Assembly: GCF_001270745.1 (NCBI RefSeq) | Contig: NZ_KQ434755.1 | Span: 228,542-292,541, forward strand | Source: Jiangella muralis | GTDB lineage: Bacteria; Actinomycetota; Actinomycetes; Jiangellales; Jiangellaceae | DNA: 64,000 nucleotides | Direction: 5' to 3' | In this document: piece after piece, positions 21,064 to 47,955 of the stretch | Layout of the letters: the number at the start of each line of letters is the position of its first letter | Position numbering within the stretch: the stretch's first letter is position 1 | Translations under genes and position numbers: made by a program | The notes under the pieces: generated by a model | What the model was told of the DNA's origin: nothing | Databases searched by the model: none | Seen by the model: the letters and a program-made list of their open reading frames with translations, nothing else

Positions 21064-21172
21064 GGATCTTCGGCGGCGCGGATCGACGCCCAGCGATGCC
21101 GACCGGCGCGGGTGCGCTGGGAGTAGTGCTCGCCTCGTGGTGCGGCAGTTGGCCTGGTCTGCTGCGTTGGCC

Positions 21173-21235
21173 GGGGTCTGCCGCGTTCGCCGCTTTGTGG
21201 CAGGGGGACGGCCAACGCGGCAGACCCCCCGGCGC
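21173..21235 (+). repeat. Dispersed intergenic repeat R1, copy A, inside a 15-bp inverted repeat
   Basis: GGGGTCTGCCGCGTT (21173-21187) pairs perfectly with AACGCGGCAGACCCC (21214-21228). The loop and right arm carry the core GGCAGGGGGACGGCCAAC (from 21199), which recurs at about 37640 and 47771 and, inverted, at about 37197. The conserved segment extends to GGCGC at 21235. Confidence 0.75.
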
Positions 21236-21267: not shown

Positions 21268-21350
21268 CACCTTGGCTAGGCTGACCGCCGCCCGGACGTC
21301 CGGTTCGTCCCGATTTCCAGCATGGTCAGCAGTGCCAAGGCACCCGCGGC
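21268..21350 (+). repeat. Dispersed intergenic repeat R2, copy A (about 83 bp)
   Basis: The block from CACCTTGGCTAGGCTGA to GTGCCAAGGCACCCGCG is almost identical to 47843-47925, with about four substitutions. Read as protein, three of those four changes alter the amino acid, so coding constraint is unlikely. In both places it follows R1 by about 35-40 bp, so R1 and R2 form one compound element. Confidence 0.8.
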
Positions 21351-21487
21351 GATCAGCCCACCAACCTGCGTAGATCACGAGGACTTGTTCATCTAGGGGT
21401 GTATCCCGAGTCCGTGGCCTATCGGCGACGCCCAGGTGGCGCCTCACCTAGACACCGCTGCGGCTCGTGACGATGTGCGCACCGATG

Positions 21488-36230: not shown

Positions 36231-37136
36231 ATGACGCGCGTCGTCGTCCTGGGTGACACCGCCGCAACCCGCTACTTCCTGCGGCAGGGGTTGAGCATCC
36301 AGCAACTGGAGTTCGTGGGGCTGGCCACCGGGCCGGACCGGGAGCGGCTGGCCTACGGTTTCGAGTACGGCTCGGCCGCGAGCCGGTTCAAGGGCACCGT
36401 CGAGGTCGGCGCCGACGCGGTCGTGCTGGCCGGACGGTACGGCCGCGGCGGGCTGCGGCACGACACCATCCCGTTCCTGGACATGGCTGCCTCGGCCGGG
36501 GAGCCGGTCAAGCCGGACGTCGTGGTGCTCGCGGCGGACTGGGACCGGCCGCTGCCCGGCTGGCTCACCGAGTCCGCGCCCCGGGTCGTCCGGTTCGGCC
36601 GGCCCACGTCCGTCGCGCCGGAGGCGGTCGTCGTGCCGCCGGCGGTGGGGTGGGTGGCGGGGGAGATCGCCGCGGCGATCCGGCCGCTCTCGGCCGTCAC
36701 CGCTGCGGCCGTTCTTGTTGACGGTGGCGGCGTCGACGGGGACCCGGACCGGGCCGCGGCGCTGGCCGCCCGCGGCGGCGCTGCCGGTGCGGTCGTCGAT
36801 CCGTGGTCCGCCGGCGACGACATCGTGGCCGCGACGGTGGCCGACGGCGCGCCGCGCGCGGTGGCGACCGCCGTGCTCCACCTCGCCGTCGAGGAGCCGG
36901 TCGAGGCGGCGGCGGTGGTCCGCCGCATCACCTCCGCGGCCCGTCGCACCCGCCTCGACGTCCGCCCCGGCCCGGCCGGCGGCGCCGACGCGCTCGGCTC
37001 GGCGGGCGCGCTGGTCGACGCCTCCGCGGTGACGGCGGCCGGCCGGTCGGTGGTGGTCCCGTTCCACTGCGACGTGCGCACCCTGGAAGCCGCCCTCGCC
37101 TGCGACGTCACCACCGGGCTCGCGACCTGGGCCTGA
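36231..37136 (+). CDS. GAPDH-fold-like protein without catalytic site, function unknown
   Basis: A 301-residue protein. The first 75 residues align by eye with the Rossmann half of glyceraldehyde-3-phosphate dehydrogenase: VVVLGDTAATRYFLRQGL in place of INGFGRIGR, then RLAYGFEYGSAASRFKGTVE matching the tYLLKYDSvHGrF segment. The end, VVVPFHCDVRTLEAALACD, also recalls the family. The catalytic Cys motif (SCTTNC) is absent, and the middle is low-complexity and Ala/Val/Asp-rich. It is the last gene of the operon, 16 bp after the hydantoinase. It could be a degenerate dehydrogenase, a nucleotide-binding regulator or a scaffold. The assignment rests on pattern recognition only. Confidence 0.7.
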   Translation: MTRVVVLGDTAATRYFLRQGLSIQQLEFVGLATGPDRERLAYGFEYGSAASRFKGTVEVGADAVVLAGRYGRGGLRHDTIPFLDMAASAGEPVKPDVVVLAADWDRPLPGWLTESAPRVVRFGRPTSVAPEAVVVPPAVGWVAGEIAAAIRPLSAVTAAAVLVDGGGVDGDPDRAAALAARGGAAGAVVDPWSAGDDIVAATVADGAPRAVATAVLHLAVEEPVEAAAVVRRITSAARRTRLDVRPGPAGGADALGSAGALVDASAVTAAGRSVVVPFHCDVRTLEAALACDVTTGLATWA

Positions 37137-37161
37137 CGCGCTCTCGGGGTTGGTGCAAGTT

Positions 37162-37197
37162 GCGCCGGGTCCGCACGTGGGCCGTCCCCCTGCTGCC
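37162..37197 (-). repeat. Dispersed repeat R1, copy C (inverted), outer left arm of the nest
   Basis: The reverse complement reads GGCAGCAGGGGGACGGCC-CACGTGCGGACC-CGGCGC. It matches copy D at 37640-37676 almost base for base in the opposite orientation, so the two form the outer arms of a 515-bp inverted repeat. Confidence 0.8.
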
Positions 37198-37309
37198 AAG
37201 AACGGGCAGCGATCAGGGGGCGGGGGAAGTGCGGGCAGAGCCCGCCCGGCGGCGTGGGGCTGTGATGGTGGTGGTCGTCTTCGATATCGGGGGCCGTGGT
37301 CTGGGTGTG

Positions 37310-37366
37310 TCGAGGACGGTTTCTGCCATCGAGGACGACTTTCGCTGTTGAGGACGACGGGGCGGG
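37310..37366 (+). repeat. Three tandem 19-bp repeats
   Basis: Units begin at 37310, 37329 and 37348 with TCGAGGACG, TCGAGGACG and TTGAGGACG. The period is exactly 19 bp, while the second half of each unit varies. The array lies inside the nested inverted repeats. Exact spacing with variable filler resembles a protein-binding array or a slipped duplication. Confidence 0.65.
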
Positions 37367-37464
37367 TCCTGGTCTGGTGTGACGTCCTGGTCTGTGGTTG
37401 CGCTTTATGGCGGTTTCAGGGCTGGTGGCGTGACTGGGGACCAGGACGTGACGGCAGACCAGGA
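37366..37464. repeat. Inner nested stems of the 37.4-kb element
   Basis: GTCCTGGTCTG (37366-37376) pairs with CAGACCAGGA (37455-37464). Inside it ACGTCCTGG (37382-37390) pairs with CCAGGACGT (37441-37449). GTCCTGGTCTG is also directly repeated at 37384-37394. The arrangement could form a forked RNA or DNA hairpin. Confidence 0.65.
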
Positions 37465-37639
37465 GGCCGACGCCGCAGTGTCCCGCGAACGGTGCATATC
37501 GGGCGCGGGCTGTGTCCGGTTCTTCCCCGTCCCCCTGATAGGTGCCCGTTCTTGGCCGGGAGTGCGCGGGTCAAGCGGTCACCGTCGCGCGAAGCGCCTA
37601 TGGGTCCGCTTGAGGCGCGTGGTTCCGGCTAAGAAAATG

Positions 37640-37676
37640 GGCAGCAGGGGGACGGCCAACGTGCGGACCACGGCGC
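37640..37676 (+). repeat. Dispersed repeat R1, copy D, outer right arm of the nest
   Basis: GGCAGCAGGGGGACGGCCAA followed by CGTGCGGACCACGGCGC. It is the same repeat as at 47771 and 21199 and the mirror of copy C. Confidence 0.8.
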
Positions 37677-37820
37677 ACTGCCGGAAGGCGGCGAACGGAC
37701 GGCCGCCGGCGCACGGAAGCAGTTCGGCGCACCGATTGCAGCTCCAGCCAGCCAGCCTCATGACCCGACCACCGCAGGCCTCACCCGCGGAAGCGATGGG
37801 CGCGGCCGGCGGCGGCAGTG

Positions 37821-37896
37821 AGCTACAGTAACGCTTCAATAAAACTGCAACTGATCGCTTTACAACTCCTGATTCGTAGCTACAGTAACGATGTAG
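37821..37896 (+). promoter_or_regulatory. Promoter and repeated operator-like site of the MerR-XRE-cupin gene
   Basis: AGCTACAGTAACG occurs twice (37821-37833 and 37878-37890), 57 bp apart. The second copy lies in CTACA-GTAACGA-TGTAG, a short dyad. TTTACA (37859-37864) and TACAGT (37881-37886), 16 bp apart, make a credible -35/-10 pair. The repeated box therefore overlaps the -10, as expected for autoregulation by the gene that starts at 37916 behind GGAGGAGG. Confidence 0.55.
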
Positions 37897-37915
37897 TTCT
37901 AGTGGAGGAGGCCGC

Positions 37916-38740
37916 GTGTACACGGTGACCGAGGCGGCGCAGCTCGTCGGAGTCAGCAGCGGCACGCTCCGGCTGTGGGAGGCGCAGGGGCTGGTCCAGC
38001 CGCAGCGTGGGCCGGGCGGGCGGCGTCGCTACAGCGAGGCCGACCTCGAGCGGCTGCGCAAGATCCAGTGGTGGCGCCGGGTGCGCGGGCTGAACGCGCC
38101 GGCCATCCGGCGGGAGCTGGAGCGGGAGGAGTACGCGCGTCTCGGCGACGCCCAGCCGGCGGCGCCGGCGCGCCCGGAGCGGGCCGACCTGCAGCTGCGC
38201 ACGGCGCGCCGCCGGGCCGGGCTGACGCTCAAGCAGCTCAGCGAGCGCTCCGGGCTGAGCGTGTCGTTCCTCAGCGCGGTCGAGCGTGGGGTGAGCGCCC
38301 CGTCGCCGACGGCGGCCGCGCGGCTGACGGCGGCGCTGCACGGCGACGTGCGGGTCGACGCGCAGCAGGAGTCGCCGGTGCACCGCCTCGGCTCGGGCAA
38401 GCGGGTCGACATCGCGCCCGGCATCACCTACGAGTGGCTCTCCGGCCACCAGGGCCTGCTGGAGCCGCAGCTGGCCGTCGTCCAGCCCGGCGCGCACAGC
38501 GACAACACGTACCAGCACGACGGCGAGGAGTTCCTCGTCGTCCTGTCCGGCAGCTTCGAGCTCGTTCTCGGCGAGGCCGTGCGGGCGCTCACGCCGCGCG
38601 ACTCCGTCCACTTCGACAGCCAGGTGCCGCACTCGTGGGCCAACCGCGGCGACGTCGAGGCGGAGGTGCTGTGGATCACCACCGAGCGGGGCGTCTGGCA
38701 GGCCGGCTCCAGCAGCCATGGACCGCGGAAGGACGGATGA
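37916..38740 (+). CDS. MerR-XRE-cupin three-domain transcriptional regulator
   Basis: A 274-residue regulator with two different DNA-binding domains. Residues about 1-68 are MerR-type (TVTEAAQLVGVSSGTLRLWE, GGRRRYSEADLERL). Residues about 92-147 are an XRE-type helix-turn-helix (LRTARRRAGLTLKQLSERSG). Residues about 180-265 are a cupin sensor with metal-type residues in NTYQHDGEEFLVVLSG and VPHSWAN. XRE-cupin regulators are common; the MerR addition is unusual. It starts the 11-gene operon and ends 1 bp before the PuuE-like gene, so it probably senses the operon's substrate. Confidence 0.88.
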   Translation: MYTVTEAAQLVGVSSGTLRLWEAQGLVQPQRGPGGRRRYSEADLERLRKIQWWRRVRGLNAPAIRRELEREEYARLGDAQPAAPARPERADLQLRTARRRAGLTLKQLSERSGLSVSFLSAVERGVSAPSPTAAARLTAALHGDVRVDAQQESPVHRLGSGKRVDIAPGITYEWLSGHQGLLEPQLAVVQPGAHSDNTYQHDGEEFLVVLSGSFELVLGEAVRALTPRDSVHFDSQVPHSWANRGDVEAEVLWITTERGVWQAGSSSHGPRKDG

Positions 38741-47678: not shown

Positions 47679-47770
47679 CCCGGCCCGCCGGGCTCGCCCC
47701 GTGTCCGCACGAACGTTGGTCCGGCCTCACCGCCGACTGGCGGCGGGGTTCGCCGCGTTGGCCGTTGTGC

Positions 47771-47803
47771 GGCAGGGGGACGGCCAACGTGCGGACCCGG
47801 CGC
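47771..47803 (+). repeat. Dispersed intergenic repeat R1, copy B
   Basis: GGCAGGGGGACGGCCAACGT followed by GCGGACCCGGCGC. Upstream GTTGGCCGT (about 47758) can pair with ACGGCCAAC in the repeat, and GTCCGCACG near 47706 mirrors CGTGCGGAC, so this copy also sits in an imperfect inverted repeat. It lies in the 277-bp gap between SDR-4 and the TetR gene. Confidence 0.75.
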
Positions 47804-47842
47804 ACGGCCGGCCGCGGCTGGCGTCACCCGGTCACCGGCCAT

Positions 47843-47925
47843 CACCTTGGCTAGGCTGATCGCCGCCCGGACGTCCGGTTCATCCCGATATCCAGCATGG
47901 CCAGCAGTGCCAAGGCACCCGCGTC
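47843..47925 (+). repeat. Dispersed intergenic repeat R2, copy B
   Basis: Nearly identical to 21268-21350. Weaker similarity continues to CATCTAGGGG at the TetR stop codon, matched by CATCTAGGGG near 21391. The element therefore reaches, or supplies, the 3' end of the TetR gene. Confidence 0.78.
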
Positions 47926-47955
47926 GAGCTGCCCGCCCAGGCTGCGTAGAAACAT

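Follow-up and report, generated by a model that had tools for sequence, protein, structure and literature searches.

Bacterial MITEs are short elements with terminal inverted repeats and no ORF, for which empty sites are found. A further class of short repeats is formed by the REPs. REPINs consist of two REPs in inverted orientation and are associated with RAYT transposases (PMC3116915). REPs are found mainly downstream of genes, between convergent or tandem ORFs, with many pairs in opposite orientation, and the CGTC REPs apparently also do without a dedicated transposase (PMC3733652; the word Actinobacteria is absent from its text). In addition, REPs are targets of insertion sequences, and the IS256, IS110 and IS5 families are listed as REP-associated (PMC1525189). 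In a limited literature search, the one Jiangella genome paper examined (PMC5292007) contained no description of the element studied here.

The locus lies in a stretch of 64,000 nucleotides of Jiangella muralis, the whole of which is called the window. Like REPINs and BIMEs, the Jiangella elements are inverted doublets of a palindromic unit and are non-coding, dispersed and non-autonomous. However, the unit of REPINs and BIMEs measures 20-40 bp, whereas the Jiangella unit, called A, is mostly 135-153 bp long, and the Jiangella elements differ in having variable inner hairpin modules. REPINs and BIMEs also have a RAYT in the genome, whereas no Y1/RAYT transposase gene (PF01797) was detected in the 12 Jiangella genomes, the control genomes being positive. 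With the GTAG and CGTC REPs the elements share their location downstream of genes and in convergent or tandem gaps, the pairs in opposite orientation and, for CGTC, the apparent absence of a dedicated transposase. In these REPs one end bears a GTAG or CGTC tag that is unpaired, whereas on inspection CGTC and GACG were located in the paired stem of A. Compared to MITEs, the terminal inverted repeats, short length, absence of an ORF and empty sites are alike, but no target-site duplication and, in G001, no parent insertion sequence was found, and the arms fold by themselves. The best reading is that the Jiangella family is REPIN/BIME-like in its behaviour, yet not a member of that class.

The window locus holds two hairpin units in inverted orientation

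Three inverted repeats were found at the window locus, at 37168-37197/37640-37669 (30 nt, 97%), 37195-37229/37522-37556 (35 nt, 89%) and 37367-37392/37439-37464 (26 nt, 88%). The two outer levels belong to a single 145-bp hairpin unit, A, of which they form the two ends, and the copy as a whole is an inverted pair of A around the hairpins M1 and M2 (Table 1). The right A forms a hairpin on its own. The original prediction had described at least four concentric levels of inverted repeats within 515 bp. The inverted repeats are real, but they are not strictly concentric, the outer two being the ends of A, and the supposed third and fourth levels are a single stem. The extra DNA is also longer, about 675 bp compared to 11 bp in the relative G004. 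The predicted absence of a gene inside was consistent with our analysis, which gave only mechanical ORFs.

Table 1. Features of the window locus (positions in the window)
Feature	Position	Strand	Basis
DNA absent from the orthologous site of G004	37146-37820 (approximate)	.	orthologue comparison
Left A unit, lacking the inner part of its hairpin by deletion	37162-37229	-	inverted repeats and comparison of copies
M1 hairpin module, GTCGTCTTCGAT..ATCGAGGACGAC	37264-37345 (approximate ends)	+	fold; M1-M2 at L008 without A
M2 hairpin module, TCCTGGTCTG..CAGACCAGGA	37367-37464	+	inverted repeat; without A in G001 gap L224
Right A unit, complete 145-bp hairpin, tip GCGCGAAGCGC	37525-37669	+	copies, compensatory changes, model matches

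Folding of both strands had been proposed as a check, together with a search for further copies and empty sites. The folding energy of the region was far below that of 100 dinucleotide shuffles (z of -13.1 and -13.7 for the two strands), and the z-scores of the whole element were similar on both strands. Ungapped inverted matches numbered 27, against a shuffle mean of 11 and a maximum of 24; this test is weak because palindromes are counted twice, and the fold z-scores are the better one.

Copies of A are dispersed in the genus Jiangella

The element was found at about 40 places in the 7.27-Mb J. muralis genome. The covariance model of A gave matches in 10 of the 12 Jiangella genomes (none in G003 and G006) and in 0 of 10 non-Jiangella genomes of the same family. 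Roughly 80 A units could be read from the list of model matches in G001; the counts of matches per genome include overlapping matches on both strands, so that the true unit numbers are lower. The original prediction had held that the outer-arm repeat also exists elsewhere, and this was borne out by the genome-wide copies and by truncated copies at window positions 21172-21217 and 47744-47804. A solitary copy without duplication, structure or transcript, which it had named as the contrary outcome, is not what was found. A second, hairpin-like repeat of 95 bp, CACCTTGGCTAGGCTGA..CAGCAGTGCCAAGG, is present in the window at 21268-21362 and 47843-47937 (92% identical), and both copies adjoin a truncated A-like end, at 21172-21217 and 47744-47789, respectively. 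Another palindromic repeat, B (117 bp, e.g. L016:1377-1493), has about 40 copies in the genome; it flanks some A elements and is also found apart from A.

All neighbouring A pairs (55 of 55) were orientated -/+. Elements of J. ureilytica and J. rhizosphaerae usually have an A(-) and an A(+) separated by a core of about 230-250 bp, and in the J. ureilytica elements the flanks are diverse and conservation starts near the outer CCCCGTCCCCCTG. The cores vary among species. For that of J. rhizosphaerae, J. aurantiaca has about 40 listed places, of which some 25 had no A close by according to our comparison; the J. muralis genome gave no copy of this core. M1-M2 also occur without A, and M2 stands alone in an orthologous gap of G001 (Table 1). 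Most A units had their nearest neighbour within the same species, with an identity of 0.80 within and 0.72 between species. Such clustering by species fits bursts or homogenisation inside species.

In the stem of A, two-sided compensatory changes were observed in 15 of the 33 predicted pairs. The tip GCGCGAAGCGC is common to many copies, others having longer, different loops. This covariation fits an RNA and a DNA hairpin alike and does not discriminate between them. On one strand, G-U mispairs exceeded A-C mispairs (103 vs 20 cells; 14 vs 5 columns, p=0.06 by columns), which is only suggestive of a strand-specific selection on RNA, and the fold z-scores of the whole element hardly differ between the strands. 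A large structured RNA, one of the possibilities raised in the original prediction, would agree with the compensatory changes and the mispair excess, but Rfam gave no match to the element at gathering score or E<=1.

Orthologous sites are empty in related species

Orthologous loci in the relatives were found with probes from the genes on both sides and then read. Several convergent gene pairs have a gap of 1-25 bp in one species and 340-740 bp of repeats in another. In J. muralis, L022 measures 740 bp, compared to 3 bp in both G004 and G010 and 6 bp in G001; L050 measures 697 bp (23 and 25 bp in two relatives) and L047 341 bp (21 bp in one relative), and at L023 the genes, 1186 bp apart in J. 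muralis, meet or overlap in G009. Similarly, the J. rhizosphaerae loci L065 (643 bp), L076 (595 bp) and L127 (621 bp) measure 1 bp (in G008), 4 bp and 13 bp, respectively, in relatives. The presence or absence at a site by itself does not distinguish gain from loss. At the window locus, urease-like genes (named by eye) adjoin the first flanking gene in G010 (L163) but not in J. muralis (window 37137-37915) or G004, so the history of this locus is less simple.

Some sites, among them the orthologous pairs L098 and L184, hold elements in several species, as would be expected if the elements were vertically inherited intergenic DNA that is occasionally lost and has no mobility. However, L022 is empty in all three relatives that were read, the cores are species-specific, and the same gap holds different hairpin types among species (L222, L225, L226 and L227). 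We therefore regard purely vertical inheritance as highly improbable. In other Jiangella species the same gene gaps contain hairpin repeats of different kinds (L203, L209, L222 and L225), and several of these repeats have TGATCAT-type stems.

The empty sites, together with the terminal inverted repeats, the many copies and the absence of an ORF, are also what a classical MITE would display, that is, a derivative of a DDE insertion sequence moved in trans by its transposase, with target duplications that have eroded. The fold-back or MITE-like character suggested in the original prediction holds as far as the multiple copies and empty sites are concerned, but no target duplication was found, nor an autonomous parent in G001. 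Direct-repeat scores in 54 pairs equalled those of mismatched flanks, no insertion sequence with A-type ends was found among the three long-spaced A pairs of G001, and the arms of the element fold individually. A classical MITE is therefore very unlikely. The alternative description as two head-to-head insertions of the same repeat came close, as the element pairs one repeat in inverted orientation, is present in many copies and has empty sites among its orthologues.

Elements are enriched between convergent genes

Gene context was counted with our own simple ORF-calling script at loci picked by one exact pattern. In the loci of other species, 22 elements were located between convergent, 4 between divergent and 31 between tandem genes, compared to 34, 42 and 78 background gaps of at least 60 bp. 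Elements are thus enriched in convergent and depleted in divergent gaps (22 vs 4 against 34 vs 42; Fisher p=5e-4). The outer end of A pointed toward a stop codon 119 times and toward a start 48 times; single A units showed no significant preference for facing a stop codon (p=0.29).

This placement, along with the compensatory changes and the G-U excess in the stem, could indicate a bidirectional terminator or insulator that serves the host at 3' ends by stopping convergent read-through, the RNA hairpin being selected and turnover occurring by recombination. However, orthologous convergent pairs with gaps of 1-25 bp do without any such element, no intrinsic terminator (hairpin and U tract) was found in 37000-38000, the strand bias is not significant when counted by columns, and the placement equally fits the survival of harmless insertions. 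A terminator or insulator role is possible, but as an explanation of the elements we consider it unlikely.

Search for an enzyme

A RAYT-driven REPIN was rejected, as Y1_Tnp was not found in any of the 12 Jiangella genomes. No ORF could be assigned to the element either. In G001, three A pairs with long spacing were candidates for an autonomous copy; they contained only ordinary insertion sequences and were rejected. A split terminator as the target was also rejected, as the locus-specific complementarity of the outer flanks was not in excess over mismatched pairs. The insertion sequences inside the A elements of G001 (L183, L184 and L185) are IS256-, IS110- and IS5-like (named by eye); L185 shares a 415-aa protein with L183 and a 133-aa protein with L184. 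Interruption by these families resembles the use of REPs as targets of insertion sequences, but it may reflect only safe intergenic DNA.

A modular palindromic family

Taken together, the window locus is probably one copy of a Jiangella-specific, modular and dispersed family of non-autonomous palindromic elements, spread by an activity in trans or by recombination. The many copies, inverted pairing, compensatory stem, empty sites, position bias, modularity and clustering by species are supported directly. The unit is an inverted pair of the roughly 140-150-bp hairpin A, and the variable core between the two is built from at least one hairpin module; modules are also found on their own. In the proposed mechanism, a trans-acting activity that recognises the hairpins may spread the elements; alternatively, they may spread by recombination between copies. 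Copies sit in the gaps that follow stop codons, particularly between convergent genes, where they presumably do least harm, and the survivors would be those in harmless 3' gaps. Several modules are stacked in one gap, hence the nested look. More tentatively, and with considerable doubt, the family could be a palindromic system of the Actinobacteria that needs no Y1/RAYT and leaves no target duplication as it spreads into abutting convergent stops, via an undescribed hairpin-recognising activity.

In Jiangella, where no RAYT was detected, the elements show a lifestyle like that of REPs and BIMEs, with hairpin modules that are larger and can be exchanged, and with clear-cut empty sites. This makes Jiangella a tractable case for studying the spread of such repeats in the absence of RAYT, and whether convergent gaps are targeted or are merely the places where insertions survive.
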